Shown: piece after piece, positions 8,542 through 34,211 of the stretch
Numbering within the stretch: position 1 is the stretch's first letter
How the letters are laid out: every line of letters begins with the position of its first letter
DNA from: an uncultured Alphaproteobacteria bacterium
GTDB taxonomy: Bacteria > Pseudomonadota > Alphaproteobacteria > Puniceispirillales > Puniceispirillaceae
DNA length: 34,211 nt
Direction: 5' to 3'
NCBI GenBank assembly: GCA_913048595.1
Contig: CAJWVJ010000007.1
Coordinates: 1 to 34,211, forward strand
Notes under the pieces: generated by a model
What the model was told of the DNA's origin: nothing
Database searches by the model: none
Seen by the model: the letters and a program-made list of their open reading frames with translations, nothing else
Translations under genes and position numbers: made by a program

Positions 8542-9252
8542 TCAGGCTTCGGCCGGTGCGCGAAGCGCGTAGCCGCTGCCGCGCACCGAGTGGATCAGGT
8601 TGGGCGTGCCATCATCATTGATGCGCGGCGCGTTGATGGCCTTGCGAAGGCGCGAGATATGGACATCCACCGTGCGCTCCTCGACGAAGACGCCATGCCC
8701 CCAGACGAGGTCCAGAAGCTGGCCGCGGGTGAAGACCCGGCCGGGGCGTTCCATCAGAATGGCAAGAAGGCGGCTTTCCTTCGGGCCGAGCGACACAAGA
8801 TGCCCGCCACGGGTGATTTCCATGGTGGTCTGGTTGAAGCGCAGGTCGTGGAATTCAAGAATTTCATCGGCAAGCGCGGGATGGGCCCGGCGCAGCAGGG
8901 CCCGCACCCGGCTGATCATCTCGCGCGGCGAGAATGGCTTGGAGATATAATCATCAGCGCCGATGTCGAGACCGAGGGTGCGATCCCCCTCCTCGCCACG
9001 CGCGCTGAGGATGATGATCGGCAACCACTTGGTTTCGGAGCGGGCACGAAGCGTGCGGCACACATCGATGCCGGACATCTGCGGCATCATCCAGTCGATG
9101 ATCGCCAGGTCGGGCCGGTGCTCCTCGATCAGATCGAGCGCCTGCTGCCCATCCCCGGCGCGTATCACATCAAAATCGGCCTGCGCCAGATTATAGGCCA
9201 AGAGTTCCAGCTGGTTTGGCTCGTCATCGGCAACAAGGATGCGGATCGACAT
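8542..9252 (-). CDS. phoB: Phosphate regulon response regulator PhoB
   Basis: MSIRILVADDEPNQLELLAYNLAQADFDV...IDWMMPQMSG...winged-helix RVFTRGQLLDLVWGHGVFVEERTVDVHISRLRKAI. Confidence 0.93.
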   Translation of the reverse strand: MSIRILVADDEPNQLELLAYNLAQADFDVIRAGDGQQALDLIEEHRPDLAIIDWMMPQMSGIDVCRTLRARSETKWLPIIILSARGEEGDRTLGLDIGADDYISKPFSPREMISRVRALLRRAHPALADEILEFHDLRFNQTTMEITRGGHLVSLGPKESRLLAILMERPGRVFTRGQLLDLVWGHGVFVEERTVDVHISRLRKAINAPRINDDGTPNLIHSVRGSGYALRAPAEA

Positions 9253-9304
9253 ATTGATCAGGTTCCTTTTCTCTTCCGACAGACACCAGCAGATGCCACA
9301 GGAT

Positions 9305-9323
9305 CGTTACAATTTTGTGACGC
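9305..9323 (-). promoter_or_regulatory. Pho box between phoR and phoB
   Basis: Minus-strand GCGTCACAAAATTGTAACG, two 7-bp-like half sites spaced 11 bp, upstream of the phoB ATG at 9252. Confidence 0.65.
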
Positions 9324-9344
9324 GGCTATTTTGTGACGCGGCTA
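9313..9344. repeat. Perfect 16-bp x2 tandem repeat (ttttgtgacgcggcta) spanning the phoR stop codon and the Pho box half site
   Basis: Sequence ttttgtgacgcggctattttgtgacgcggcta read directly. Confidence 0.95.
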
Positions 9345-10463
9345 TCCATCGCCGAGAACCGGCAGCGACACGGCGAATGTCGTGACACCGTCGGCAGAGC
9401 TGGAGATCTGCATCCGGCCCCGATGCCGGTTCACGATATGCTTGACGATGGCAAGCCCGAGGCCGGTGCCGCCAATCTGGCGTGACCGCGCCTTGTCGAC
9501 CCGGTAGAACCGCTCGGTCAGGCGGTGCAGGTGCTTTTCGGAGACGGGCTCGCCCATGTTGGTGACCGAGATGACAACCAGGTCATCCCCCTGCGCGCCG
9601 ATGTCGATGTCGACGTCGATGGTGGTGTCCTCGAACCCGTATTTGATCGCATTCTCGATCAGGTTGTGAAAAACCTCGTTGATTTCGTCCGAATAGCCCT
9701 TCATCACAGGCCGGTCCGCACTGTTGGGCCGGCTGTCCGACAGCAGGATCCGCATCCGGCGCTGCGCGGCGCGCGCCTCGAGGCTGGCGATCACCGATTT
9801 CACCACCTCCAGAAGCGGCACCCGCTCGTCCGGCACGATATGCTCGTCAACCTCGACCCGCGACAGCGACAGCAGATCGTCGATCAGCCGCGACATACGT
9901 CCGGCCTCTTCCTCCATGATCTTCAGAAAACGCTGTTGCGTCGGCCAGTCCCGCACATCATTGACCAGGATGGTCTCGATGAAACCGGCAAGGCTTGTCA
10001 GCGGCGAGCGAAGCTCATGGCTGACATTGGCAACGAAATCCCGGCGGACCTTCTCGAGGTTGCGCTGCAGCGTCATGTCGAGAATCAGCACCATGATCAG
10101 CCCGTCATCCATGCGCCGGATGCGGACATTGAATTCCATGGCGACGCTTGTCTGCGAGGAATGAACCAATGTGCATGAGTTCTCGCAACTGGCAACAACC
10201 TTGCCGACATCATCCGAGGTGAAGATGTCGAGAAGCGGCCTGCCGACAAGACCTTCGCCAAGAAAGCGCACCGCGGCGCTGTTGGCGGACAGTACGATGC
10301 CGGAATCATCAGCCACAAGAAGCCCGTCATCAAGCATGCGCCCGACTTCACTGAGCACGCGTGGCTCGATGACAGATGCGGTGTCCTTGGGGGCGTTCAT
10401 CTCTGACCCGTTGCGTGTCTGCGCGGCAAGGCAGGCCTCGGCGCTGCGGTGAAAATATAGCAA
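9342..10463 (-). CDS. phoR: Phosphate regulon sensor histidine kinase PhoR (start may instead be ATG at ~10400)
   Basis: PAS-like segment, H-box [26 protein letters not shown] boxes IENAIKYG... [20 protein letters not shown]; immediately upstream of phoB. Confidence 0.92.
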
Positions 10464-10490
10464 GGCCGGTCGGGAGTGACCAGCCTTGCG
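10455..10490 (-). terminator. Hairpin between phoR and ppx, terminator-like on the minus strand
   Basis: Minus strand GCAAGGCTGGTCACTCCCGACCGGCCTTGC followed by TATATTTTC; 7-bp plus 4-bp stem. Confidence 0.6.
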
Positions 10491-10504
10491 AGGCGGCGTG
10501 GCGC

Positions 10505-12019
10505 CTACGCCCCCTCGATCTGCGGTGCCAGATTCGCGCTTTGCGCCAGCTGGAAGAAACGGCGCTTGGCATGGCTGTCGACAAGCGGCACGCCGCTGGG
10601 ATCGACATGCAGCGTCAGCACCCTGCCGTCATGGCTGAGACGAAGCTTCTGCAGGTCCTGTGCGGTGCCGCCGGAGAAGGTCAGCGCGAACCGCAGCCCC
10701 AGCCCGATGGTCGTGGCCTCGGCGCGGCGGCGGCGGCCAAGGATGGCGGACAGCTCCGGCGGCCGCGATTTGTTCGTCTTGCGCCCGACATAGCGGTGAT
10801 AGATGGCGGTGGCCAGCCAGATGCGTTCCTTGTGGGTGACGCAATTCACCGGCAGGCCAAGAACCCGCCGCGCGCCAAGGTCGCCGCGCACATCCTCATG
10901 TTCGTTCCAGCACATGTCCGACAGGAAACAGGCCGCCTCGAGAAGCCGTTCATAGCGCGCCCGGTTGCGTTCCGCGGTCGGGTCATCATCCGACCCGTGG
11001 CGGCGGAATAGCGGGCGAAGCAGTTCGACAAGCGCCTCCGGCACCCCGGCGAACCGGTGTGAGGCGCGCGATATCTCCTGACAGACAACCTGCAGGAAAT
11101 CGGCACGGTCACCGTCCCCGAGCTCACGGTCGGCAATCAGCCCGTCGCGGATGCTGGTGCCGCTGACGACAATCCGACCGGCGGCGCTCTGCTGAAGCAG
11201 GTTCCGCATGATCAGCGCCGCCATCGGCATGGTCTTCTGGCGGCCAAGCGGCACACCCGACATGTCGGGGGATTCGCGGCAGAAGGCAGCCAGAAGATTG
11301 TCCGCCTCGTCACCCGGGATACGAAGCCCGTGAAGCACCGGAAGCGGGTATCCGGTCTGTTCGATGTAGGCAAGCCCGAGCGCGCGGAACGACCCGCCAA
11401 CACCATAGATGCGGTCTGTCCACCCCGCGCCAAGCCAGGGGGCCTTGTCGAAGGCCGCGCTGATCTCTTCCTGCGAGACAATCGACAGATGTCCGAAATT
11501 GAAGCTTGTCGAATTCAGCACCGCGCCGCGTTCAAGCTGGACGACTTCAAGGCTGCCACCGCCAAGATCGGCGACAAGCCCCGATGCCTCGGGAATGTTC
11601 AGGGTCAGGCCGCGCGACACGAAATGCGCCTCCTCGACCTGCGTCAGCACCTGGATGGGCTTGCCGATGATGGCCTCGGCTGGACCGGTGAATTCGACCC
11701 CGTTGCGGGCGCGGCGGACCGCCGCCGTCGCCACAGCATGGATCGTGGTCACCCCCATCGCCGACATGATCCGCGCAAACCGCGACAGCGCCGCCAGCGC
11801 CACCTGGATGCGGTCCGGCTGCAGCATGTCATCCTCGCCAAGCCCCTCGCCAAGACGGCAGTTGGATCGCTCGTTGAACAGCGGGAACGGATAGCGCCCG
11901 CCGCTGGCATAGATCACAAGCCGGATGGAATTGGACCCGATATCGATCACCGCGATCGGAGCTTCGCGGCCGGTCTTGCCAATTTCGGCCAGTACGCTGG
12001 TGCCTGCCTGCATCGCCAT
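10505..12019 (-). CDS. ppx: Exopolyphosphatase / guanosine pentaphosphatase (Ppx/GppA)
   Basis: APIAVIDIGSNSIRLVIYASGGRYPFPLFNERSNCRLGEGL...VADLGGGSLEVVQLERG...; the 5' part of the 612-aa ORF overlaps thiolase and is spurious. Confidence 0.9.
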   Translation of the reverse strand: MAMQAGTSVLAEIGKTGREAPIAVIDIGSNSIRLVIYASGGRYPFPLFNERSNCRLGEGLGEDDMLQPDRIQVALAALSRFARIMSAMGVTTIHAVATAAVRRARNGVEFTGPAEAIIGKPIQVLTQVEEAHFVSRGLTLNIPEASGLVADLGGGSLEVVQLERGAVLNSTSFNFGHLSIVSQEEISAAFDKAPWLGAGWTDRIYGVGGSFRALGLAYIEQTGYPLPVLHGLRIPGDEADNLLAAFCRESPDMSGVPLGRQKTMPMAALIMRNLLQQSAAGRIVVSGTSIRDGLIADRELGDGDRADFLQVVCQEISRASHRFAGVPEALVELLRPLFRRHGSDDDPTAERNRARYERLLEAACFLSDMCWNEHEDVRGDLGARRVLGLPVNCVTHKERIWLATAIYHRYVGRKTNKSRPPELSAILGRRRRAEATTIGLGLRFALTFSGGTAQDLQKLRLSHDGRVLTLHVDPSGVPLVDSHAKRRFFQLAQSANLAPQIEGA

Positions 12020-12021
12020 TC

Positions 12022-13212
12022 TCAGACAAGCTCGATGGCGATGGCGGTGCCCTCGCCGCCACCGATGCAGATGGCGGCGATACCGCGCTTCAGTCCACGC
12101 GTCTCGAGCGCGTTCAACAAGGTCACGATGATGCGGCTTCCCGAGGCGCCGATCGGATGGCCAAGGGCGCAGGCCCCGCCATTCACATTCACCCTGTCGG
12201 CCGGGATGCCGTGTTCGTGCATGAAGGCCATGGGGACCACCGCGAAGGCCTCGTTCACCTCCCACAGATCGACATCGCCAACCGTCCAGCCAAGCCTGTC
12301 CATAAGCCTGGCCGCGGCCGGTACCGGCGCGGTGGTGAACCATTGCGGGGCATGCGAATGGCTGGCATGGGCCAGAATCCGCGCGCGTGGTTTCAGGCCC
12401 TGTTCAGCCGCCATGGCAGCGCTAGTCACCACAAGGGCCGCCGCCCCGTCGGAAATCGAGGACGCATTGGCCGCGGTCACGGTGCCATCCTTGGCGAAGG
12501 CCGGTTTCAGCTGCGGAATCTTCTCTGGCCGCGCCTTGCCGGGCTGTTCGTCGGCGGTGATGACAATCTCTCCCTTGCGGGTGGCCACGCTGACATCGGC
12601 AATCTCGCCGGCGAAGACGTCGCTGGCCTGCGCCGCCAGCGCGCGTTCCAGCGAGCGCAGCGCGAAATCATCCTGCGCCCCGCGCGAGAACTGGTAGCGC
12701 GCGGCACAATCCTCGGCAAAGCTTCCCATCAGCCGGCCGCGGTCATAGGCATCCTCCAGACCATCAAGGAACATGTGGTCCTGAATCGTCTGATGGCCAA
12801 GTCGCGCGCCGCCGCGGGTGGATGGAGACAGGTAGGGGGCGTTGGTCATGCTTTCCATGCCGCCGGCGACAACAAGGCCGGCGCTTCCTGCGCGCACAAG
12901 GTCATGCGCCATCATCACCGTCTTCATGCCCGACCCGCATACCTTGTTCAGCGTCGATGCCGGCACGTCCTCGCCAAGACCGGCAGCGAACCCCGCCTGG
13001 CGCGCCGGGGCCTGGCCCACCCCGGCAGGCAGCACGCATCCCATGATCAGCTCATCAACTGATTCGGCGCCGGTACCGGCATTGGCAAGCGCGGCGGCGA
13101 TGGCCGCCCCGCCAAGCTGCGGCGCGCTCAGCGGCGCAAAATCGCCCTGAAAAGCGCCCATTGGCGTGCGGGCGGCACCGGCAATGACGATGTGGTCGGC
13201 GGCATCTGACAT
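12022..13212 (-). CDS. Acetyl-CoA acetyltransferase (thiolase)
   Basis: MSDAADHIVIAGAARTPMGAFQGDFAPLSAPQLGGAAI...LNKVCGSGMKTVMMAHD...NVNGGACALGHPIGASGSRI...AAICIGGGEGTAIAIE. Confidence 0.95.
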   Translation of the reverse strand: MSDAADHIVIAGAARTPMGAFQGDFAPLSAPQLGGAAIAAALANAGTGAESVDELIMGCVLPAGVGQAPARQAGFAAGLGEDVPASTLNKVCGSGMKTVMMAHDLVRAGSAGLVVAGGMESMTNAPYLSPSTRGGARLGHQTIQDHMFLDGLEDAYDRGRLMGSFAEDCAARYQFSRGAQDDFALRSLERALAAQASDVFAGEIADVSVATRKGEIVITADEQPGKARPEKIPQLKPAFAKDGTVTAANASSISDGAAALVVTSAAMAAEQGLKPRARILAHASHSHAPQWFTTAPVPAAARLMDRLGWTVGDVDLWEVNEAFAVVPMAFMHEHGIPADRVNVNGGACALGHPIGASGSRIIVTLLNALETRGLKRGIAAICIGGGEGTAIAIELV

Positions 13213-13403
13213 CAGGTCTCTCCCCGGAGGCCGTGGCTGACAGCGCAACAATGGCGCGTGCCGATCCTAGGGGGCATGGCAGTCTTTTTCAAACCTTTGC
13301 GGCATCGCCGGACAATGGCTGTGTTTTTCATGCCGCCGGGCACCGGCAGCTATGGCATAATATGCGGGTGAAGGGACCCGATCGGACGAGGCAGGGCGAC
13401 AGG

Positions 13404-14699
13404 ATGCGTATTCTTCAATCAATGCTGACGGCCCTTGTCAGCGCGCCGACGCGCATCGGTGTTCTGGGCTGGCTCCAGGACCGCGAATTCGATGACGCCC
13501 CCGAGGCGCTGGTCGAAGCGGTTCTGTCGGCAACCGGCGAAGTGTCCTCGCTTGTCTGCGCGGGACGGCTTCTCGACCAGATCGAAACAATGGATGCTTC
13601 GGCGCTGGCCGACCTCGTCGCGCATCTCGCCGAGTCCCATGATCTGGACACGGCGGCGCTGTCGGCGGCGGCGGCGGCGTATGGGGGCAATCCCGACCCG
13701 AAAGGCCTTGCCGATATCGCCCGCCTTGCCGAGCCGCGCTGGGTGGAATTGTTCCGGCGGCTGAACGCCACCGATGGCGGCACCGTGCGTCTGGTAAGGC
13801 TGCGGCAGCGTGTTCTCGACATGGGTCGCAAAAATATCTCGGCGGCGCGGCTTGATGGCGGGCTGCAGTCGCTTCTTCGGATGTGGTTCAACCCCGGCTT
13901 TCTGATCCTGCAGCCGATCGACTGGTCGACGCCTGCCAATATCCTGGAGAAGATCATCGCCTATGAGGCCGTGCATGCCATCTCCTCATGGGATGATCTG
14001 CGCGCAAGGCTGGCCCCCGAAGACAGGCGGTGCTTCGCCTTCTTCCACCCGCTGATGCCAGAAGAGCCGCTGATCTTCGTCGAGGTGGCTTTGACCGAGG
14101 AGATTCCGCGGGCCATCGAACCTGTGCTGCAGATCGAGCGCGAGGCACTTGCCGCGCATCAGGCCAGCACGGCGGTGTTCTATTCGATCTCGAACTGCCA
14201 GCCCGGGCTTGCCGGTATTTCCTTCGGCAATTTCCTGATCAAACGGGTGGCGCAGGAGCTGAAGCAGGAATTTCCCGAGCTGAAGCGGTTCGTCACGCTG
14301 TCACCTGTTCCGGGGCTGATGAAATGGCTTCGCGGCGCGCAGCCCGACCTTGCCGCGCGGTTCGACGGCGCGGATGCCGGCTTCTGGAATGGCGAGGCGG
14401 CGGATCAGGAAAAGCCCTTCCTTGCCGCGGCGATGCGATATTTCACCAGGTCCGACCGGCCGGATGGCTGGCCGAATGACCCGGTGGCGCGCTTTCACCT
14501 TGGCAATGGCGCGGTTCTGGAACAGCTCAATTACGGCGGCGACAGGTCCGGCAAGAGCATGGCGCAGTCGGGCGGGCTGATGGTGAATTACCTGTATGAC
14601 CTGAAAGTGGTCGAATCGAACCACGAAGCCTTCCATGAAACCAAGGCCGTGCCGCTGTCCTCAGCGCTCAGGCAGCTGCAGAAATCAGTTTCCGGCTGA
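13404..14699 (+). CDS. Malonyl-CoA decarboxylase
   Basis: AISSWDDLRARLAPEDRRCFAFFHPLMPEEPLIFVEVALTEEIPRAIEPVL...FYSISNCQPGLAGISFGNFLIKRVAQELKQEFPELKRFVTLSPVPGLMKWL; start codon uncertain (13362 also possible). Confidence 0.9.
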   Translation: MRILQSMLTALVSAPTRIGVLGWLQDREFDDAPEALVEAVLSATGEVSSLVCAGRLLDQIETMDASALADLVAHLAESHDLDTAALSAAAAAYGGNPDPKGLADIARLAEPRWVELFRRLNATDGGTVRLVRLRQRVLDMGRKNISAARLDGGLQSLLRMWFNPGFLILQPIDWSTPANILEKIIAYEAVHAISSWDDLRARLAPEDRRCFAFFHPLMPEEPLIFVEVALTEEIPRAIEPVLQIEREALAAHQASTAVFYSISNCQPGLAGISFGNFLIKRVAQELKQEFPELKRFVTLSPVPGLMKWLRGAQPDLAARFDGADAGFWNGEAADQEKPFLAAAMRYFTRSDRPDGWPNDPVARFHLGNGAVLEQLNYGGDRSGKSMAQSGGLMVNYLYDLKVVESNHEAFHETKAVPLSSALRQLQKSVSG

Positions 14700-14713
14700 A
14701 GCGCATAGCCCGC

Positions 14714-15712
14714 TCAGCCATCCCGCCTGAGATGTGACAGGCGCTGCTGCTGCGCCGCCAGCGCGGCGTGATATTCCGCCGCCAGCCTGTCCACCAGATC
14801 AGCCACGCGCGGCACATCACCGACGCTGCCGACACCATGGCCGGCCGACCAGATATCCCGCCAGGCGGTGCGTTCGTTCGTGCGCGCGCTCAGCGCGTCG
14901 GCGATTTCGCGGCTGATCTCGGCCTCCGGCGCGCCGCCGCCTTGCGGCGCGATCCCGGCCTCGGCAAGGCTTGCGGCAAGGAAATTGGCATTGACGCCGG
15001 AGACCCGGTCGGTCTCGACGATATCCTTCACCGTGCTGTCCAAGATCATGCTCTTGTAATCTTCGGGCGAACGACATTCGGCCGTCCCGATGAAGCGCGT
15101 TCCCATATAGGCAAGGTCGGCCCCCATCACCTGCGCGGCGGCAATGTCACCGCCTGTCGCCATCGCGCCGGACAGCATCAGCGTGCCGTCAAACACCTGG
15201 CGGATTTCGTTGACAAGGGCGAAGGGGCTGGCCTTGCCGGTATGGCCGCCGGCCCCCGCCGCCACCGCGATCAGCCCGTCGACACCGGCCTCGATGGCCT
15301 TGTTCGCGTGACGCAGATTGATCACATCGTGAAACACCAGCCCGCCATAATCATGCACCGCGCCGACAAGTTCCGGCACCGCGCCAAGCGAGGTGATGAC
15401 AAGCGGCACCCGGTGGCGGATGACCATGTCGAGCTCGTCCCGAAGCGCATCATTGCTGCGATGCACGATGAGATTGGCCCCGAAAGGCGGGGCCGGATGG
15501 CCTGTTTCGGCCTCGATGGCGGCGCAGCCCTCGCCGATCTCGGTCAGCCATTCATCAAGACCTTCGACAGATCGCCGGTTCTTCACCGGCAAACTGCCGA
15601 CGATGCCGGCGCGGCAGCAGGCCAGAACCAGTTCCGGCCCGGACGCAAGAAACATCGGCGCGGCGATCAGCGGCAGCCTGAGGCGCCCGTCGAAGATCGG
15701 GGATAACGGCAT
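14714..15712 (-). CDS. NAD(P)H-dependent flavin oxidoreductase / nitronate monooxygenase family
   Basis: RLRLPLIAAPMFLASGPELVLACCRAGIVGSLP...GAGGHTG...LSGAMATGGDIAAAQVMGADLAYMGTRFIGTAE. Confidence 0.9.
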   Translation of the reverse strand: MPLSPIFDGRLRLPLIAAPMFLASGPELVLACCRAGIVGSLPVKNRRSVEGLDEWLTEIGEGCAAIEAETGHPAPPFGANLIVHRSNDALRDELDMVIRHRVPLVITSLGAVPELVGAVHDYGGLVFHDVINLRHANKAIEAGVDGLIAVAAGAGGHTGKASPFALVNEIRQVFDGTLMLSGAMATGGDIAAAQVMGADLAYMGTRFIGTAECRSPEDYKSMILDSTVKDIVETDRVSGVNANFLAASLAEAGIAPQGGGAPEAEISREIADALSARTNERTAWRDIWSAGHGVGSVGDVPRVADLVDRLAAEYHAALAAQQQRLSHLRRDG

Positions 15713-15861
15713 GGCAATCTGTCCCTGTTCACACCCCTGAGGAAAAAAACCTGATTCATCTTTCAGGGCCGGCGCGGTGATGGCAACGGGTTTCTTGCCA
15801 TCCCGCCAGCGCCGTTACAGACCGCTGGACATCAATTGAAAATCCGGACCAAGATAGCGCC

Positions 15862-16410
15862 ATGCCACATGACCATCACGACGATAACCCGCACAGCCTG
15901 CTGCCGTCCGAACCGGCGCTGAGGGTCAAGGCGCTGGAGACCATCCTTGCCGAGAAGGGGCTTGTCGATCCGGCTGCACTGGATGCCATCATCGACCTAT
16001 ATGCGCATGAGATCGGCCCGCAGATCGGCGCCAGCCTTGTGGCGAAGGCCTGGGTGGATGACGGGTTTCGCGCCGGGCTTCTTGCCGATGCCAACACCGT
16101 GATCACCCAGCTTGGCCATGGTGGCCGGCAGGGCGAGCATGTGGTTGTGGTCGAGAACAGCCCCGACACCCACAATATGGTCGTCTGCACGCTATGCAGC
16201 TGTTACCCCTGGCCGCTCCTCGGCATTCCGCCGGGATGGTACAAGTCGGACGCCTACCACGCCCGCGCCGTTCGTGAACCGCGCGCCGTGCTTGCCGAGT
16301 TCGGCGTCACCCTTGCCGACGGCATGGATGAGGCGGCGCTGGCCGCGCTGGTCACGCGTGATTCGATGATCGGCACCGGCCTGCCACGGGCCCCGGGGGC
16401 ATCGACATGA
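15862..16410 (+). CDS. nthA: Nitrile hydratase subunit alpha (cobalt-type motif)
   Basis: Metal-binding motif VVCTLCSCYPWPLLGIPPGWYKSDAYHARAVREPRAVLAEFGV; the CTLCSC form is the one associated with Co-type enzymes. Confidence 0.95.
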   Translation: MPHDHHDDNPHSLLPSEPALRVKALETILAEKGLVDPAALDAIIDLYAHEIGPQIGASLVAKAWVDDGFRAGLLADANTVITQLGHGGRQGEHVVVVENSPDTHNMVVCTLCSCYPWPLLGIPPGWYKSDAYHARAVREPRAVLAEFGVTLADGMDEAALAALVTRDSMIGTGLPRAPGAST

Positions 16411-17090
16411 CCCGCATCCATGACATGGGCGGGCGCTTCGGTGATGGTCCGGTGCCGCGCGAAGCGGATGAAACCAGGGTGTTCGCCATAGGCTGGCATG
16501 CCCGCGCGCTGGCGCTGACCGTGGCGGCAGGGGCGCTTGGCAAATGGAATATCGACGCCTCGCGCCATGGCCGCGAACGGCTGCCACCAGCCGATTACGC
16601 ACGGCTCAGCTATTACGAGAAATGGCTCGCCGGGCTGGCGAAGATGCTCGTGGAACGCGGCATCGCCACTGCCGAGGAAATCGCCGCCGGACGAAGTCCT
16701 GCGCCGGCGCCTGATGACCTGACGGAAAAATGCCTTGTCGCCGCGCGGGTGGTGCCTGCCCTTCGCAGCGGCGGACCCTCGGCGCGCAGCAGCACCGCCG
16801 CCCCGGCCTTTGCCATCGGATCGCGGGTCCGCACCCGCCCGATCGCCGAGAATGAAACCGTGGCTGGCGGCCATACCCGCCTTCCCGCCTACGCGGCCGG
16901 ACGGCCGGGCACAGTGGTTCTGCGTCATGGCGCGCATGTCTTTCCCGACAGAAACGCGCATTTCCACGGCGAGGCCCCGCGGCATCTCTACACCATCAGC
17001 TTCGCCGCCTCCGATCTGTGGCAGCATGCCGAATCCGCCGGGGACGAGGTGCGGCTCGATCTGTGGGAAAGCTATCTGGTGCCGGAATGA
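16407..17090 (+). CDS. nthB: Nitrile hydratase subunit beta
   Basis: N-terminus MTRIHDMGGRFGDGPVPREADETRVFAIGWHARALAL; C-terminal FPDRNAHFHGEAPRHLYTISFAASDLW; ATGA overlap with nthA. Confidence 0.92.
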   Translation: MTRIHDMGGRFGDGPVPREADETRVFAIGWHARALALTVAAGALGKWNIDASRHGRERLPPADYARLSYYEKWLAGLAKMLVERGIATAEEIAAGRSPAPAPDDLTEKCLVAARVVPALRSGGPSARSSTAAPAFAIGSRVRTRPIAENETVAGGHTRLPAYAAGRPGTVVLRHGAHVFPDRNAHFHGEAPRHLYTISFAASDLWQHAESAGDEVRLDLWESYLVPE

Positions 17091-17425
17091 CAGGGGGTAT
17101 GACGGGCGGACCCGGACCTGACATGCCCTTTGCCGCGCCCTGGCATGCCGCCGCCTTTGCGATGACGGTGCATCTTCATGAACGTGGCCTGTTCACCTGG
17201 CCTGACTGGGCCGCGGCGCTTGGCCGGGCCCTTGCCGCCGACGAGAAGGCAGGCCGCCTTGACGGAAGCGATGATTACTACCGCGCCTGGATTGCCGCTC
17301 TTCAGGAGCTGCTGGCGGCGAACGGCGTCGCCGGCGCGCCGGAGATCGAGACTGTGATGAAGGAATGGAAGGCCGCCTATCTGGCGACCCCTCATGGAGA
17401 GCCGGTGAGGCTGGCGGCGCGCTAG
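17087..17425 (+). CDS. Nitrile hydratase accessory/activator protein
   Basis: MTGGMTGGPGPDMPFAAPWHAAAFAMTVHLHERGLFTWPDWAAALGRALAA...DDYYRAWIAALQELLAANG; beta-N-terminus-like fold, ATGA overlap with the beta subunit gene. Confidence 0.85.
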   Translation: MTGGMTGGPGPDMPFAAPWHAAAFAMTVHLHERGLFTWPDWAAALGRALAADEKAGRLDGSDDYYRAWIAALQELLAANGVAGAPEIETVMKEWKAAYLATPHGEPVRLAAR

Positions 17426-18264
17426 CTGTCGGTCCAGACAGGGCGGCGCTTTTCGATGAAGGCATTGATTCCCTCCTCGGCATCGCGCGCCAGCATGTTC
17501 TCGACCATCACCGCCGCCGCATGCTCATAGGCCCCGGCGAGGGTCTTTTCCGCCTGCTGATAGAAGGCAGGCTTGCCAAAAGCGACAGTGGCGGTGGATT
17601 TGGCGGCAATCTTGCGGGCCGTCTCCATCACCCGCCCGGTCAGCTCGGCGGCCGGAACGGCGTCATTCACCAGCCCGATTTCGGCGGCGCGCGGTGCCGG
17701 ACAGGGATCACCCGTCAACAGCATTTCCATGGCGTGCTTGGCCGCCACCTTGCGCGACAGGGCCACCATCGGGGTTGAGCAGAACAGTCCGATATGGACG
17801 CCAGGCGTGGCGAAATGCGCCTCTTCAGCGGCAAAGGCAAGATCGCAGCTGGCCACAAGCTGGCAGCCGGCCGCGGTCGCGGTGCCGGCCACCTCGGCGA
17901 TCACCGGCTTGGGATTGGCCGGAATGGAAGACATCAGCGCGGCGCATTGCGTCATCACCCTGGTGAAATAGGCGCGACCACGGTCCGCCACATGCGCCGG
18001 GTCCCGGCGCGCCGCGGTCATTTCCTTCAGATTGTGGCCGGCGCAGAACACCGGACCGGTGGCGGCGATGACCACCACCCGAACCGCCGGGTCCGCCGCG
18101 GCATCCGCCAGCGCGGCCGCCAGCGCCGTCATCATCGCCTCGGACAGGGCGTTGCGCGAGGCCGGCGCGTTCAGGGTGAGCCGCAGGACGCCGTCACCGT
18201 CAAGGTCGGCCAGAACAAGGTTTTGGTTGTCATCGGCGGTTATCTTGGTCATGGCGCACTCCAA
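17422..18264 (-). CDS. Enoyl-CoA hydratase/isomerase family protein
   Basis: LTLNAPASRNALSEAMMTALAAAL...GPVFCAGHNLKEM...PKPVIAEVAGTATAAGCQLVASCDLAFAAEEAHFATPGVHIGLF. Confidence 0.93.
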   Translation of the reverse strand: MECAMTKITADDNQNLVLADLDGDGVLRLTLNAPASRNALSEAMMTALAAALADAAADPAVRVVVIAATGPVFCAGHNLKEMTAARRDPAHVADRGRAYFTRVMTQCAALMSSIPANPKPVIAEVAGTATAAGCQLVASCDLAFAAEEAHFATPGVHIGLFCSTPMVALSRKVAAKHAMEMLLTGDPCPAPRAAEIGLVNDAVPAAELTGRVMETARKIAAKSTATVAFGKPAFYQQAEKTLAGAYEHAAAVMVENMLARDAEEGINAFIEKRRPVWTDS

Positions 18265-18320
18265 GCCTGATCACAGGGGAAGGCTAGCGCCGCTGCGGCC
18301 AGGCTGGCAAGACGCGGCGG

Positions 18321-19034
18321 TCAGCTTTCATCGGAAAGGCCGCTTGTGTTGTCGGCCTTGGGCCGCTTGGTGTCGATGGCCACCCCGGTCTCGACAAACA
18401 TGATCTGTTCGGCGAGGCCGGTGGTGAAATCACCCATACGTTCGAGATTCTTGGCAATGAACAGCAGATGCGCGCCGTTCAGTGCGGAAATCTCACCAGC
18501 TTCCATCTGTTCGATGACATGGCGGAATATATTGGTGTGAAGCTTGTCGACATGCATATCGGAATTGCGGATGGCCTGGGCGGTTTCGAGATCACCTTGC
18601 TGATAGGCGTCCATCACGTCATCGATCATCGACGCCACCATGGTGCCGATCTCGATCAGCTGGTCCCAGGGAAGCTGGTTCGCGTCGCTTTCCATGATGG
18701 CCTTGGTGCGCTTGCCGACATTGCGGGCATAGTCACCAATGCGCTCGAGGCTGTGCGCCGCCTTGGCAGCCGACAGCACGCGGCGCAGATCATCGGCGCG
18801 CGGCGCACGGACCGTGATCACCATAAGCACCCGTTCATTGACCTCGGCCTCCAGCGCGTCGAGCTCCGCATCCTGCTCGATCATCATCTGCACACGGTTT
18901 TCCTGGAAGTCCGACATGGCGCGAAGGCAGGCGTTCAGCTGCCGGCTGGCAAGCATGCCAAGGCGCACGAGTCCCATATTCAGGTCCGCAAGGTCCTTTT
19001 CGAAGGCGCTGCTTGTATGTGCCGGCTGGTTCAC
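18321..19034 (-). CDS. phoU: Phosphate transport system regulatory protein PhoU (probable GTG start)
   Basis: AFEKDLADLNMGLVRLGMLASRQLNACLRAM...RAPRADDLRRVLSAAKAAHSLERIGDYARNVGKR...LERMGDFTTGLAEQI; follows pstB. Confidence 0.93.
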   Translation of the reverse strand: MNQPAHTSSAFEKDLADLNMGLVRLGMLASRQLNACLRAMSDFQENRVQMMIEQDAELDALEAEVNERVLMVITVRAPRADDLRRVLSAAKAAHSLERIGDYARNVGKRTKAIMESDANQLPWDQLIEIGTMVASMIDDVMDAYQQGDLETAQAIRNSDMHVDKLHTNIFRHVIEQMEAGEISALNGAHLLFIAKNLERMGDFTTGLAEQIMFVETGVAIDTKRPKADNTSGLSDES

Positions 19035-19088
19035 CTGATGTCCTTTGCTTGCTTCATAATGCCTCGGTACGCGCACCTGCGCGGCGGA

Positions 19089-19934
19089 TCAACCGAACCG
19101 CCCGGTGATGTAGTTCTGGGTCATTTCATGTTCCGGATTGGTGAACACCTGTTCGGTGTTGCCGACCTCGACCAGCTTTCCAAGATGGAAATAGGCCGTG
19201 CGCTGCGATACGCGTGCCGCCTGCTGCATCGAATGGGTGACGATGACGATGGTGAACTGGCTGCTCAGCTCGTCGATCAGCTCCTCGATCCTGGCTGTCG
19301 CGATCGGGTCCAGCGCCGAGCAGGGCTCGTCCATCAGAATGACCTCGGGGCTGACGGCAATCGCGCGGGCGATGCACAGGCGCTGCTGCTGGCCGCCCGA
19401 CAGGCCAGTGCCGGGCTGCTGCAGCCTGTCCCTGACCTCGGCCCAGAGTCCGGCGCGCTCAAGCGAGCTTTCGACAATGTCATCCAGCTCGTCGCGGCTT
19501 GACGCCAGCCCGTGAATCCGTGGGCCGTAGGCGACATTGTCGTATATCGATTTCGGGAACGGGTTCGGTTTCTGGAACACCATGCCGACGCGGGCGCGAA
19601 GCGGCACCACATCCACATCCGGCGCGTAGATGTTATAGCCATCAAGGGCGATTTCCCCCTCGATGCGGCAGATGTCGATGGTGTCATTCATCCGGTTCAG
19701 GCAGCGAAGGAACGTGGATTTGCCGCAGCCCGACGGGCCGATGAAGGCGATGACCTGTTTTTCGGCGATGTCGAGCGTTACATTGTCGATGGCCTGTTTG
19801 TCGCCATAATAGACATTGACGTTCCGCGCCGTCATCCGCGGATGGTCCGTGAAGATGTTGCCGACGGTTTCCGCCGGGACGTGCGAGACTTCCAAATCCT
19901 GCTTGCTGGGGGCGTTCATGACCTGCATTTCCAT
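19089..19934 (-). CDS. pstB: Phosphate ABC transporter ATP-binding protein PstB
   Basis: Walker [22 protein letters not shown], signature [36 protein letters not shown]. Confidence 0.96.
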
Positions 19935-19956
19935 CTTGTGCTGTCCCTTGGCGTGT

Positions 19957-21261
19957 CTACCAGCGCCGCTCGAGTTTCTTGCGGATGACGATCGCCGCCG
20001 CGTTCATCAGGATCAGGAACGCAAGCAACACCATGATAGCCGCACTTGTCTTCAGGATAAACATCCGTTCGGCGAAGTCGGCCCACATGAAAATCTGGAC
20101 GGGAAGAACCGTTCCCGGATCGGTCACGCTTCCCGGCACATCGACGATGAACGCCACCATGCCAATCATCAGAAGCGGCGCGGTTTCGCCAAGTGCCTGC
20201 GCCATGCCGATGATGGTGCCAGTCAGCATCCCCGGCATCGCCAGCGGCACCACATGGTGCAGCATTGTCTGCATGCGCGAGGCGCCCACGCCAAGCGCCG
20301 CATCGCGGATGCTTGGCGGCACGGCGCGAATGGCGGCGCGTGACGAGATGATGATGGTCGGCAGCGTCATCAGCGCCAGCACCACCCCGCCGATCAGCGG
20401 GATCGAACGCGGCATGCCGAAAGTGCCGATGAAAACGGCAAGGCCGAGAATGCCGAACACCACCGACGGCACCGCGGCCAGATTGTTGATGTTGATCTCG
20501 ATGATCTCGGTCACGCGGTTCTTCGGGGCGAATTCCTCGAGATAGACAGCCGTCGCCACCCCAAGCGGGAAGGACAGCACCAGGCAGACGGCCAGCGTCA
20601 GGATCGAGCCGACAAGCGCGCCGTAGATACCCGCCATCTCGGCGTTCCGCGATGCGCTGCCAAACACAAGATAGTCGCTGAACCGGAAGCTGATCAGCCC
20701 CTTGTCATTCAGCACATCAATATAGCCGATCATCTTGTCATTGATGCGGCGGTCCTTTTCCGGCGTCTCGCGCTTGATGAAACCGCGAAGGAAGCTGTCG
20801 ACATCATCATCGACGGCGAAGGTCATGGCGCGGGTGGTGCCAAGGATCGACGGGTCGTCCAGAATGGCGTTGCGAAGCCGCTGTTCGGCGCCCTGCGAGA
20901 TGATCTTGCCGGCGGCCTTGCGTCCCGACCGCCCGGACGCGCCAGCCGCCTCGTACAGCGCCGTGCGGATCACCCCGCGCGCATCGCCGTCATACAGGGA
21001 CTGGACCGACAGATCGCCGGCCGGGTCGAGCTTGGCGCGGTCGAGAGCCACCTCGATCGTCACATAATGCTGGAAAAAGCCGGGGATGCCCTTCGAGAAG
21101 ATCGAGACAAACAGCGTCACCAGAAAGGCCAGCGCGATCCCGATGGCGATCCGGCCATATATCCGGAACCGCTTTTCACGGCCGCGCCGCGCCGCAAGGC
21201 CGGCGGCGACACGCTCGGCGGCCATCGCTGGTGACATCATCTGTTTCCCGGTGTCACTCAT
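19957..21261 (-). CDS. pstA: Phosphate ABC transporter permease PstA
   Basis: Hydrophobic permease with [36 protein letters not shown] and [50 protein letters not shown] at 21261 overlaps the pstC 3' end. Confidence 0.93.
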
Positions 21262-22681
21262 ATTGCTCTCTGTATTTCTTGACGATCTGAAGCGCCATGA
21301 AGTTGAGCCCCAGCGTGATGACAATCAATGTCAGCGCCAGCGCGAAGGCGGACAGCGTCTTGGCGGATTCGAATTCCTGATCGCCGACAAGGATGGTCAC
21401 GATCTGCGAGGTTACGGTGGTCACCGCATCAAGCGGGTTGAGCGACAGGTTGGCGGCAAGGCCGGCGGCCATCACCACGATCATCGTCTCGCCAACAGCG
21501 CGCGAAACCGCCAGCAGGATGGCAGCGACAATACCCGGAAGCGCGGCGGGAAGAACAACCTGGCGCACCGTCTCGCTCTGCGTGCTGCCAAGCCCGTAGG
21601 CGGCGTCGCGAAGCGCCTGCGGCACCGCGTTGATCACATCGTCAGACAGCGACGAGACAAAGGGGATGATCATGATCCCCATCACAAGGCCGGCGGCAAG
21701 CGCCGATTCCGAGGCGACGTCGAGACCAAGGCTCATGCCTGTCGAGCGGATGAAGGGCGCCACCGTCAGCGCCGCGAAGAAACCATAGACAACGGTCGGC
21801 ACGCCGGCGAGAAGCTCCATCAGCGGCTTCACCAGCGACCTGACCCGCGGGGTGGCGTATTCCGACAGGTAGATGGCGCTGAACAGGCCGACCGGCACCG
21901 ACACGCTGAGCGCCACCACCGAGATCAGGAATGTGCCGACAAACAGCGGAACCGAGCCGTAGGTGGCCAGACCCATCTGTCCAGAGCCGGCGCGCTCGGC
22001 CCCTTCGAACTGCGGGTTCCAGGTGGTGCCGAACAGGAATTCCGAGACAGGCACAAGGGCGAAGAAACGCATCGATTCGAAAATCACCGAGAAGACGATG
22101 CCGATGGTGGTCAGGATGGCGATGGCCGAGCTTGCGGCGAGGATGGTCATCACGATCCGCTCGACCGCGTTGCGTGACCGGAAGGCCGGATTGACCATGC
22201 GATAGGCGAACATGCCGCCAAGAAGCGACAGCGCCAGCACGGTCACATTCTTCAGCAGGCGCGAGGTGTCTTCCCATCCATGCCAGGCCTCGGCGGCGGC
22301 ATAGACCCAGTCCGGCTGCTCGCCGAAATTGATGCCGTTCACGACATTGTAGATCTGGGCGAGGACGATGACTTCCTTGTAGTTCTCGCCTGCCTTCACA
22401 TCCGCGGGAATGAAGCCCAGCGCCAGCTTGTTGAAGACGATGTCGTCACCAATGGCGAGGATGGCAAGAAGCGACAGCGCCGGCAGCGCGGCGACAAGGC
22501 CGGCGAACAGGCCGTAATAATGTGGCAGGGAATGAAGGCGCGCGCCAGCGGCGCGGACGGTCCTGGAGGATCGTGTGCCCAGATAGAAATAGCCGGAGCT
22601 GATGAGGAGAACCGCGATCAGAAGCGCAAAGCTGTCCACCTGTTCCTCCAGGCCAAAAAGAAAAGAAGAGCCAGCCATCAC
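21254..22681 (-). CDS. pstC: Phosphate ABC transporter permease PstC (GTG 22681 or ATG 22678 start)
   Basis: LSEYATPRVRSLVKPLMELLAGVPTVVYGFFAALTVAPFIR...LGSTQSETVRQVVLPAALPGIVAAILLAVSRAVGETMIVVMAAG. Confidence 0.94.
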   Translation of the reverse strand: MMAGSSFLFGLEEQVDSFALLIAVLLISSGYFYLGTRSSRTVRAAGARLHSLPHYYGLFAGLVAALPALSLLAILAIGDDIVFNKLALGFIPADVKAGENYKEVIVLAQIYNVVNGINFGEQPDWVYAAAEAWHGWEDTSRLLKNVTVLALSLLGGMFAYRMVNPAFRSRNAVERIVMTILAASSAIAILTTIGIVFSVIFESMRFFALVPVSEFLFGTTWNPQFEGAERAGSGQMGLATYGSVPLFVGTFLISVVALSVSVPVGLFSAIYLSEYATPRVRSLVKPLMELLAGVPTVVYGFFAALTVAPFIRSTGMSLGLDVASESALAAGLVMGIMIIPFVSSLSDDVINAVPQALRDAAYGLGSTQSETVRQVVLPAALPGIVAAILLAVSRAVGETMIVVMAAGLAANLSLNPLDAVTTVTSQIVTILVGDQEFESAKTLSAFALALTLIVITLGLNFMALQIVKKYREQYE

Positions 22682-22692
22682 TAGCTGGCTCT
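22655..22692 (-). promoter_or_regulatory. Terminator/attenuator-like hairpin at the pstS-pstC junction, with the pstC start codon in its loop
   Basis: Arms agagccagc (22667-22675) and gctggctct (22684-22692), 9-bp perfect; loop 22676-22683 contains the GTG/ATG start; minus strand continues TCTTTTCTTTTTGG. Confidence 0.7.
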
Positions 22693-22709
22693 CCCTTATA
22701 TTTCCAGTC

Positions 22710-23768
22710 TTACTTCAGCATGTCGGCTGTCAGTTTCGGCAGGTCCTTCATGGCGGCGGCATATTGCGCACGCTCGGCCTCTGGCATCGGGATCATGCCG
22801 GCGTCTGACAGTGCGCCGTCCTCACCCCAGTGCTTAACCCACTCGGCCATATATTCGGCAATGCCCGGGACAACGCCGACATGGGCATGCTTGACGTAGA
22901 AATAGAGCGACCGCGACACTGAATAGGAGCCTTCGGCTATCTCGTCAAAGGTCGGGTTGGTGCCGTCGATGACAGCGCCGTGCAGGGTGTCGCTGTTCTG
23001 GTCGAGATAGGAGAAGCCGAAGATGCCGTATGCGGACGGATCTTCCTGAAGCTTCTGGACGATCAGATTGTCCTGCTCGCCAGCCTCGACATAGGCGCCG
23101 TCAGTGCGCATCGCGCGGCAGGTCTTCGCCTTGGCACCGGCCGCCTTCAGGGCTGCCTTGGCCATCTCGTCTTTTTTGCAATAGCCCTTTTCATTGACCA
23201 TTTCGGCAAAGGAGGCGCGGGTGCCGGAGGTTGTCGGCGGGCCATAGACGCGGATTTCGACATCAGGATAGTCGGCGTTGATGTCGCTCCACTTCTTGAA
23301 CGGGTTCGGCACCATGTCGGTGCAGTTCACGTTGGTCGATCCGTCGGCGCAGGCGGGAACCATGGCGGTCAGCGCCATGCCCAGATCGGCCTTGGAAATG
23401 ACCAGCGGCACACCGTCCTTCGAGTTGGCGACCACGATGCCGTCGTAGCCAACCTTGATCTCGGTCAGGTCGACACCATTGCCGTCGCAATATTCCAGCT
23501 CACCAGTCTTCATCCGCGAAGACGCGTTGCCGATGTCGATGAACTCGGTACCGATGCCTTCGCACACACCCTTCTTGCCAACGGACGATCCGCCGGATTC
23601 AACAACGGGGGTCTTGAAGCTTGGGTTGTTGCCAAGCTGCTCGGCCACAATGGTGGCAAAGGGAAGAACGGTCGACGAACCAGCGATGCTGATATAGTCA
23701 CGCGCGCTGGCGGCGGTGGTCACGCCGACAAGGGCAACCGCACCGGCAAGGGCAAAGGTGAAACGCAT
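22710..23768 (-). CDS. pstS: Phosphate ABC transporter substrate-binding protein PstS
   Basis: Signal peptide MRFTFALAGAVALVGVTTAASA then RDYISIAGSSTVLPFATIVAEQL...ESGGSSVGKKGVCEGIG...GPPTTSGTRASFAEMV. Confidence 0.94.
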   Translation of the reverse strand: MRFTFALAGAVALVGVTTAASARDYISIAGSSTVLPFATIVAEQLGNNPSFKTPVVESGGSSVGKKGVCEGIGTEFIDIGNASSRMKTGELEYCDGNGVDLTEIKVGYDGIVVANSKDGVPLVISKADLGMALTAMVPACADGSTNVNCTDMVPNPFKKWSDINADYPDVEIRVYGPPTTSGTRASFAEMVNEKGYCKKDEMAKAALKAAGAKAKTCRAMRTDGAYVEAGEQDNLIVQKLQEDPSAYGIFGFSYLDQNSDTLHGAVIDGTNPTFDEIAEGSYSVSRSLYFYVKHAHVGVVPGIAEYMAEWVKHWGEDGALSDAGMIPMPEAERAQYAAAMKDLPKLTADMLK

Positions 23769-23819
23769 GATGTGTCTCCTGCGAGGGGTTTGATAATGAC
23801 GCAGGTCTCCGCGACAAGC

Positions 23820-23838
23820 GTTACAAAATAATGTCACC
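23820..23838 (-). promoter_or_regulatory. Pho box (promoter-distal or -proximal half of tandem pair) upstream of pstS
   Basis: Minus-strand GGTGACATTATTTTGTAAC: TGACAT/TGTAAC half sites spaced 11 bp. Confidence 0.7.
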
Positions 23839-23840
23839 AG

Positions 23841-23859
23841 CATTACAGTTTTATGACGC
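23841..23859 (-). promoter_or_regulatory. Pho box upstream of pstS
   Basis: Minus-strand GCGTCATAAAACTGTAATG, close to consensus CTGTCATAAAACTGTCAT; about 21 bp from the adjacent box. Confidence 0.78.
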
Positions 23860-29480: not shown

Positions 29481-29639
29481 GCAGCGTCTGTCCTGTCTTC
29501 CTGTGCTGCCGTGTATGCTACCTTCGCCGGCGCGTGGACGCCCCTTCGGATCATCATGGCCAGCCTAGAATAGAACCCCCCTGAGCCGGCCCGCAAGACA
29601 CCTCGGGGATGGCAGTTTTACCACTTTGCGGTCTTTTTT

Positions 29640-29656
29640 TAAATCAAATTGATTTA
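29640..29656. promoter_or_regulatory. 17-bp AT-rich palindrome upstream of gap, candidate repressor operator
   Basis: taaatcaa-a-ttgattta: perfect 8-bp arms around a single base, in the ROK/gap divergent intergenic region; a TTGACC -35-like hexamer lies just downstream (29661-29666). Confidence 0.55.
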
Positions 29657-29716
29657 TTAATTGACCCAGCCCATCCGGATCGGCTATTCGGTAAACAGGA
29701 AACATGGGGGAACGTC

Positions 29717-30715
<999 letters not shown>

Positions 30716-30791: not shown

Positions 30792-32240
30792 ATGAGCGAA
30801 TCAAAGGTCCCCTCGGTCAACCTGTCCCCAAGCGACTATGTGATCATCGGTGGCACCGGCGATCTGTCGCTTCGCAAGATCCTGCCGGCGCTGTTCTGGC
30901 GCTATCTCGACGGGCAGATCACGGCGGATTACCGCATCGCCGCAGCCTCGCGCCGCGACATCGCGATCGACGAATTCGCCGCCATGCTGCGCCCGTTCTG
31001 CGAAAGCGCGTTTGCCGACGGCACCGCCGGCGAGGATGAATGGCAGGGATTTCTGGCACTTGTCTCGATCATCACTCTTGATGTGAAGGGCAGCGAAGGC
31101 GGCGACAAGCTGGCAGAATTCATCGCCGAACGCGCGGATAGCGGCCGGCCGACCATCTTCTATCTGGCCATCGCGCCGAGCCTGTTCGGCGACGCCACCC
31201 GCCTTCTTCGTGATTGTGGCCTTGTCGTGCCGCAGGCCCGCCTTGTCGTGGAAAAGCCGCTTGGCCATGATGGCGAATCGAGCCGCGCCATCAATGCCGA
31301 GCTTGCCGAAATCTTCGATGAATCGCAGATCTACCGGATCGACCATTATCTTGGCAAGGAGACGGTCCAGAACCTGATGGCGCTGCGCTTTGCCAATGTG
31401 ATTTTCGAATCACAGTGGAACAACAACCATTTCGACCATGTGCAGATCACCGTCGCCGAGACGGTCGGGGTCGACAACCGCGCCGGCTATTACGATGCCT
31501 ATGGCGCCATCCGCGACATGGTGCAGAACCACCTTCTGCAGCTTGTCTGCCTTGTGGCTATGGAACCGCCATCATATTTCAACGCCGACCAGGTGCGGGA
31601 CGAGAAGCTGCGCGTGCTGCGCGCCATCCGCCCCCTGTCCGCCGAGGATATTTCCTGCGGCCAGTACCAGGAATATATGCAGGAGCTTGGCAACAGCTCG
31701 AACACCGAGACCTTCGTGGCGATGAAGCTGGCCGTCGACAACTGGCGCTGGGCCGGAGTGCCCTTCTATATCCGCACCGGCAAGAAGCTGGCACGGCGCG
31801 CCTCGGAAATCGTCATCACCTTCAAGCAACGCCCGCACGATATCTTCCAGCGCAATGGCGGCGGCGACATCGACAGCCCGCCGAACAGGCTGATCATACG
31901 CCTGCAGCCAAGCGAAGGGCTTCGCCTGCAGCTGATCTCGAAGGAGCCGGGGCCCGGCGGCATGCGGCTGTTCCCCTCCGAGCTCAACCTCAGCTTCGGC
32001 GACACCTTCGAGACACGCCTTCCCGACGCCTATGAACGGCTGCTGATGGACACGGCGCGTGGCAACCAGACCCTGTTCATGCGACGCGACGAGGTGTTCG
32101 CGGCATGGGACATCATCGACCCTGTTCTGACGCTGATCGCGGGCAAGACACCCTCGCTCTACCGCTCCGGCACGATGGGACCGGAGGATGACCTTCTTGT
32201 CGCCGACGGCCGCGCCTGGATTGATCCTTACGACGACTGA
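30792..32240 (+). CDS. zwf: Glucose-6-phosphate 1-dehydrogenase
   Basis: SPSDYVIIGGTGDLSLRKILPALFWRYLDGQI...VEKPLGHDGESSRAINAELAEIFDESQIYRIDHYLGKETVQNLMALRFAN. Confidence 0.95.
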   Translation: MSESKVPSVNLSPSDYVIIGGTGDLSLRKILPALFWRYLDGQITADYRIAAASRRDIAIDEFAAMLRPFCESAFADGTAGEDEWQGFLALVSIITLDVKGSEGGDKLAEFIAERADSGRPTIFYLAIAPSLFGDATRLLRDCGLVVPQARLVVEKPLGHDGESSRAINAELAEIFDESQIYRIDHYLGKETVQNLMALRFANVIFESQWNNNHFDHVQITVAETVGVDNRAGYYDAYGAIRDMVQNHLLQLVCLVAMEPPSYFNADQVRDEKLRVLRAIRPLSAEDISCGQYQEYMQELGNSSNTETFVAMKLAVDNWRWAGVPFYIRTGKKLARRASEIVITFKQRPHDIFQRNGGGDIDSPPNRLIIRLQPSEGLRLQLISKEPGPGGMRLFPSELNLSFGDTFETRLPDAYERLLMDTARGNQTLFMRRDEVFAAWDIIDPVLTLIAGKTPSLYRSGTMGPEDDLLVADGRAWIDPYDD

Positions 32241-32336
32241 TCCGCAGACAGGGCGCTGGAATCGCCGGCCAGAGCTGTGCGATACTGGTCCCTGTCTCGC
32301 GATATGCCTGCAACCTGACGGCACGGGAACCTTGCC

Positions 32337-33719
32337 ATGACCCAGCTTCACGACCGCATCGCCACCGTTCTCGAACGGATCCGCCTGCGAAGCCACGACC
32401 GGCGGCAGGCCTATCTGGACGATATCGCCGCCATGGAGAAGTCGCCCGACAGCAATCGCCGCGCCGTGTCCTGTTCCAACATGGCGCATGCCGCTGCCGC
32501 GGCCGGCCCCGACCAGGACAAGGTTCTTGGCGGCGGCGACAGCCTGGCGCCGAATATCGGCATCATCACCGCCTATAACGACATGCTGTCGGCGCATCAG
32601 CCCTTCGAAGGCTATCCGCAGGTGATCCGCGCCGCCGCGCGCGCCGCCGGCGGTACCGCACAGGTGGCGGGCGGCGTGCCGGCCATGTGCGACGGTGTCA
32701 CCCAGGGCCGCCCCGGCATGGAACTGTCGCTGATGAGCCGCGATGTGATCGCCATGTCGACAGCCGTCGGCCTGTCGCACGGTGTCTATGACGCGGCGCT
32801 GTGCCTTGGCGTCTGTGACAAGATCGTGCCGGGCCTTGTGATCGGGGCGCTGTCCTTCGGCCATCTGCCGGTGATCTTCGTGCCTGCCGGCCCGATGACA
32901 AGCGGCCTGCCGAACGCCGAGAAGGCGGCGGTGCGAAAGGCCTTTGCCCGCGGCGAGGCGACCCGCGCCGATCTTCTGAAATCCGAGGTCGCCGCCTATC
33001 ACGGCCCCGGCACCTGCACCTTCTACGGCACCGCCAATTCGAACCAGATGCTTATGGAAGTGATGGGGCTGCACCTCCCGGGGTCGGCTTTCGTCAATCC
33101 GCATGACGACCTGCGGCACGCGCTGACCGTAGCGGCGACCGAGCGCGCCATCGCCACATGCGTCATCGACTGTGACCCGAAACAATCCGCCCTCGCTTGG
33201 TACCAGGACCGCCCGGATGAAGAGCCGCCGGTGGTCGACGGCTATCAGGCCGAAGGCCGCCGCCTCGACCGGACCGGCAGCCTCGCCCGAATGATCCGCG
33301 TCGCCGAAACCGACGAATTCGAATTGGCCATCATCGACACGGCGACCGGCGCGGCTGGCGCGCTTGGTGAAGCCGCGCGGGCGGCTGACTTTTGCGTCGT
33401 GCCCTGCCGCCCGGCGCATCTCGATTCGGCCGCGATGAGCCAAACAATCGCGACCCTGGCCGCCAGCCAAACGCCCTATGCCGTGCTGCTTAACGCCTGC
33501 CCGCCGGCGCGGGGCATCGACGGCGACGCCGCGATCGGGAAATGCCGCGACCTTCTGGACGCCGAGGGAGTTCCGCTCTTTCGGACGGCGGTCTCCGCGC
33601 ATGCCATATTTGGTGATGCCCTCCGCCACGGCTATGCGGTCACCGAACGCGCGCCCGACAGTCCGGCGGCAGTGGAGATCGGCGCGGTGCTCGATGAGTT
33701 ATTGGCGTTCCTAAATTGA
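32337..33719 (+). CDS. Chimeric ORF: N-terminal ~265 aa of 6-phosphogluconate dehydratase (Edd) fused in frame to the C-terminal part of a ParA-family ATPase
   Basis: First part: [19 protein letters not shown]...[22 protein letters not shown]...[55 protein letters not shown]...[33 protein letters not shown]. Second part: [32 protein letters not shown]...[12 protein letters not shown]...[25 protein letters not shown]...[12 protein letters not shown]. Confidence 0.85.
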
Positions 33720-33963
33720 CGCGCGGCCGACGCGGCGCGCGACTTCAACTTGTTGGCCTTGCGAATTTATCGCGCGGTTTCAAGATGACAGCAGATATCG
33801 CCATCCCGCCGGCTTTGGGGGGGATGCGACAGTCCTCTTATAGGTTTGGGGGTGGTCGCTAAGCCTGGTTCGCTTCACGCCTTCACCCCACCGGCTGTGC
33901 CGGCCGAATGACGAGCGGGGAGCCTTGGGATTGGTGCGTGCCTCTCCGCCACCGTTTAAACAC

Positions 33964-33986
33964 AAAAAACCCGGCCGGAGCCGGGT
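33964..33986 (-). terminator. Rho-independent terminator, minus strand
   Basis: Minus strand ACCCGGC-TCCG-GCCGGGT followed by TTTTTTGTG. Confidence 0.75.
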
Positions 33987-34119
33987 CGAAACGGAAAGTT
34001 TGGTTGCGGGGCGGAATTATGCGTTCGCCGCCTGGTAGCTCCGCTGTCCTACAACACGATGTTTCATAACGTTTTTCCGGTCGAACCACCAGGTTCGTTC
34101 ACCCCCCACGCCTAACAAT

Positions 34120-34155
34120 AAATAAAGCCCCCGGCGACGCCTGGGGGCTGTATTT
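34120..34155. terminator. GC-rich hairpin just downstream of the tRNA 3' end, probable (possibly bidirectional) terminator
   Basis: agcccccggc gacg cctgggggct with one bulge (34126-34149), flanked by AT-rich tracts on both sides. Confidence 0.6.
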
Positions 34156-34157
34156 GC

Positions 34158-34211
<54 letters not shown>

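Follow-up and report, generated by a model that had tools for sequence, protein, structure and literature searches.

The stretch of DNA analysed here (hereafter the window) spans 34,211 nucleotides and constitutes the entire contig C7, one of 135 in a draft genome of 1.87 Mb whose completeness is estimated at 69.4%. Near its 3' end, on the plus strand, gap (glyceraldehyde-3-phosphate dehydrogenase, 29609–30715) and zwf (glucose-6-phosphate dehydrogenase, 30792–32240) stand in the conserved order gap-zwf-edd-eda; zwf is the usual upstream neighbour of edd in congeneric genomes. The next open reading frame (ORF), at 32337–33719 on the same strand, runs for 460 codons from an ATG start to a TGA stop with no frameshift. 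Elsewhere in the window, the genes at 8542–23843, recognised by eye from their translations, appear ordinary: an apparent phosphate regulon on the minus strand with a PhoB/PhoR-like pair (8542–10463) and PhoU-PstB-PstA-PstC-PstS-like genes (18321–23843), plus other genes, among them nitrile hydratase-like genes (15862–17425).

The initial annotation described the 460-residue product as a 6-phosphogluconate dehydratase (Edd) that turns into a ParA ATPase, and profile searches bore this out. Residues 5–274 match positions 1–267 of the 601-position edd profile TIGR01196 with 416.7 bits, below the curated cut-off of 708 bits for a full-length Edd, and residues 72–281 match positions 2–213 of 316 in Pfam ILVD_EDD_N (IlvD/EDD family, PF00920). 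The Edd half shares 93% identity with the complete enzyme of the nearest congener, and the gene has the same neighbours, zwf and gap, as in congeners. This half retains Cys118 (in a Cys-Asp-Gly motif), Cys160 and Cys227, putative Fe-S ligands assigned by analogy with Cys112, Cys154 and Cys220 of the Shewanella enzyme (PMC5770437). A conserved serine of the C-terminal domain and parts of the dimer partner both contribute to the active site in this family (PMC5770437). The ORF differs from a complete Edd in that the match ends at position 267 of 601: the C-terminal domain, with the conserved catalytic Ser and the substrate-binding Thr, is absent from C7, and the C-terminal part lies on another contig of the genome, C6.

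The second half matches the ParA partition ATPases (NF041546, ParA_partition). Residues 263–454 align to positions 20–203 of the 203-position profile with 83.9 bits, that is, a score of 84 where the cut-off is 180. The alignment thus begins only at profile position 20 and reaches the profile end, with VID-DP (Walker A') and the remaining C-terminal fold present. Taken with the genome searches, this match delimits the C-terminal 189 codons of a plasmid-type ParA (33150–33719, plus strand) that lacks the P-loop. The deviant Walker A motif KGGxGKTT had been noted as missing, and a motif scan of the whole ORF found neither it nor KGG nor any GK[TS]. Without a P-loop, a ParA protein is not expected to bind or hydrolyse ATP. 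If the fused protein were made, neither dehydratase nor ParA ATPase activity would be expected of it, as the initial annotation had also anticipated, given that the Edd catalytic Ser/Thr motif, the Edd C-terminal domain and the ParA P-loop are all absent from the predicted sequence.

The switch between families had been placed around codons 262–275. A junction zone at about 33120–33156 agrees with this; however, Edd similarity does not stop at codon 262, since nucleotide alignability with intact edd genes extends through about 33156 (codon 273–274). By profiles and alignments, the zone (plus strand; 40-base junction sequence CCATCGCCACATGCGTCATCGACTGTGACCCGAAACAATC) is compatible with Edd and with ParA (LAVAAxxxGxxxCVID). 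Its VAATERA segment, proposed earlier to suit both families, lies in a stretch that aligns gap-free to the P-loop-to-VID segment of ParA relatives, e.g. TAVAAEATGERVCVIDADP. Because the stretch fits both proteins, the exact join can be located no more closely than about 33120–33156. The microhomology-type, similarity-guided join that had been suggested is supported. Across the join the reading frame continues, in register with ParA. GC content is 0.67–0.68 on either side with no composition shift, and the codon usage of the ParA half falls at the low end of the window's range but not outside it, so that codon usage, whose comparison on the two sides had been put forward as a check, is not decisive. 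An open frame of 685 codons on the minus strand (31572–33629), antisense to zwf and the chimeric ORF, also crosses the join; it is a by-product of high GC and not a gene.

C7 continues for 1.06 kb beyond the join. Downstream of the ORF, 33720–34160 is a non-coding stretch, assigned to neither strand, with terminator-like hairpins; searches of 40 related genomes found no relative of this DNA between the ParA stop and the adjoining tRNA gene. Between two of the hairpins we saw, by eye only, a very short minus-strand frame (34020–34070; MKHRVVGQRSYQAANA, then stop), which is probably due to chance. C7 terminates inside a tRNA-Met gene (34161–34211, minus strand), which was detected by Rfam but, being truncated there, escaped Aragorn. 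The tRNA-Met gene is a repeated gene of a kind that frequently forms contig ends.

To place the two halves, we compared them with other genomes. Of the 11 congeners, 10 carry edd as a single frame of 612–624 amino acids, whose resemblance to the query ends at residue 274–283; the eleventh genome (77% complete) gave no edd match. None of the 60 nearest genomes, and none of 136 genomes of the order, held a relative of the ParA half. Its matches elsewhere are ParA proteins about 25–40% identical and come from alphaproteobacterial plasmids and other orders of the class, the closest relatives (33–40% identical) being likewise on plasmids or in those other orders. A search of plasmids, phages and viral contigs for a donor returned distant plasmid relatives only, with a DNA-level match only at the tRNA. 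No Edd-ParA fusion was found when the whole ORF was searched against 40 other genomes. A recurrent fusion, which the initial annotation had allowed for as an architecture shared by many genomes, was thus rejected for the genomes searched.

The first base of contig C6 lies inside edd, at the equivalent of window position 33028, and the 377 residues encoded from there match profile positions 225–597 with 514 bits, i.e. the other 62% of edd. Next on C6 come eda, a transporter-like gene and a glucokinase-like gene (glk). Since C6 starts in edd at the homologous base, and congeners carry gap, zwf, edd and eda in a single unbroken run, C7 and C6 would appear to flank one assembly gap in edd. The search of the genome that had been proposed for edd, eda and the 5' part of parA yielded the rest of edd and eda, but neither an intact edd nor the missing 5' half of this parA. 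Other ParA-type matches in the genome are separate frames on C17, C46 and C121, each with its own P-loop region. The two other IlvD/EDD family members, in frames of 634–665 amino acids (C14:4099–5604 and C78:6782–8191), fall far short of the edd cut-off; they are presumably dihydroxy-acid or sugar-acid dehydratases.

The two contigs share about 129 bases of edd, which are only 86% identical; the two contig ends thus represent different molecules. Within the overlap, C6 shows 87–93% identity to six congeners, whereas C7 (33028–33149) is the outlier, at 84–88% to the same six; among themselves these congeners are mostly 86–94% identical over the same positions, with one pair at 99%. Upstream of 33028, C7 does not stand out from the group, with 88.6% DNA identity to its closest congener, G005 (32337–33027). 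Substitutions private to the window against all six congeners number 9 in 496 positions before 33041 and 7 in 89 after it (Fisher p 0.005, supporting rather than decisive, as the region was chosen after inspection). Of the 16 substitutions private to the window, 7 thus fall in the final 100 bases of edd on C7. On this basis edd on C7 can be divided into a genus-typical 5' part (32337–33052), which by congener comparison includes a highly conserved block at 33012–33052 that holds the C6 start and is a likely assembly branch point, and a segment at 33053–33149 with the cluster of private substitutions (7 of the 16 in aligned edd), probably from another strain (all plus strand).

We consider the ORF to be very probably a chimera of assembly, at a probability of about 0.87, the genome being metagenome-assembled or a similar draft. 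This was one of three options raised by the initial annotation, and it is favoured by the presence of the rest of edd and of eda on C6, the intact genes of congeners, the lack of the fusion elsewhere among the genomes searched and the nearby contig end; of the other two, neither loss of the Entner-Doudoroff pathway nor a novel function of the protein found support. The assembly graph may have branched in the conserved edd block (about 33012–33052) common to co-occurring related strains. C6 would begin at this branch with the continuation of one strain, and C7 would have been extended for about 100 bases along the edd of another strain. C7 may then have passed, via the short edd/parA similarity at about 33120–33156, into the back half of a foreign parA, probably plasmid-borne, before ending in the tRNA-Met gene. 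In short-read metagenome assemblies inter-species chimeric contigs are common; one benchmark counted about 22 per genome for megahit (PMC11261854). C7 and C6 resemble such inter-genome chimeric contigs (PMC11261854) in switching source in a conserved stretch near a contig end, and in that the complementary part of the gene lies at another contig end of the same assembly (C6, equivalent of 33028). The organism itself most likely has an ordinary edd gene of about 615 codons, arranged as gap-zwf-edd-eda-(transporter)-glk, and the fused protein need not exist.

Several observations count against a chimera. A random join would preserve both the frame and the ParA register in one case out of three at best, but their preservation is accounted for if the join was guided by similarity. 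Neither does base composition change at the join, and the codon usage of the ParA half remains within the range of the window. Moreover, a fusion confined to one strain would look much alike in comparative tests. We weighed an actual break of the gene in a single strain, in which edd was interrupted by recombination with, or insertion of, a plasmid or island carrying parA, or was brought together with parA by a deletion. This would leave a fused non-functional pseudogene, with the rest of edd lying beyond the insert. The junction is open and in frame, a plasmid-type ParA is followed by a tRNA-Met gene as at integration sites, and C6 could represent the far side of the insertion, with a mosaic at the target site explaining the divergence of the edd overlap. 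Yet an overlap of 129 bp at 86% identity is unlike an ordinary target duplication, the 1 kb carries no integrase or further mobile gene, and edd is intact in 10 of the 11 congeners. In a survey of SAR116, the probable clade of this genome, all genomes lacked 6-phosphofructokinase and had the Entner-Doudoroff pathway (PMC8547437); loss of Edd would therefore be costly, as only the pentose phosphate route would be left (PMC8547437). We regard such a break as unlikely, and as likewise unlikely the specific outcome of one strain in which integration of a plasmid-like element, or deletion into it, through a short edd/parA similarity produced a true edd::parA fusion that switched off the Entner-Doudoroff dehydratase in a lineage that probably depends on it.

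A chimera could also have formed at the bench, during library PCR or multiple displacement whole-genome amplification, via the same short similarity, and been assembled from few reads. The short sequence shared at the join would suit this origin, as would two changes of origin within some 100 bases, roughly the length of a short read, and an incomplete genome of a size also found among single-cell genomes. However, such joins seldom attain consensus depth without amplification bias, and those that arise by amplification are most often inverted, which makes a wet-laboratory origin very improbable. A functional fusion, in which the Edd cluster-binding domain and the ParA domain acquired a new role, is hardly credible: the frame is uninterrupted and the Edd N-terminal domain retains its three cysteines that are putative Fe-S ligands, but searches of genomes, plasmids, phages and viral contigs gave no further example, the ParA part has no P-loop, and the Edd part lacks the C-terminal domain with its conserved catalytic serine and the segment needed to complete the active site of the partner (PMC5770437).

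The main value of this locus is as a warning that a join in a draft assembly can yield an intact-looking reading frame across two protein families. Such joins can be exposed without reads by looking for the complementary half of the gene at other contig ends of the bin and for the intact gene in congeners. If the fusion were true, a central enzyme of sugar degradation would have been lost in a lineage that probably lacks phosphofructokinase.
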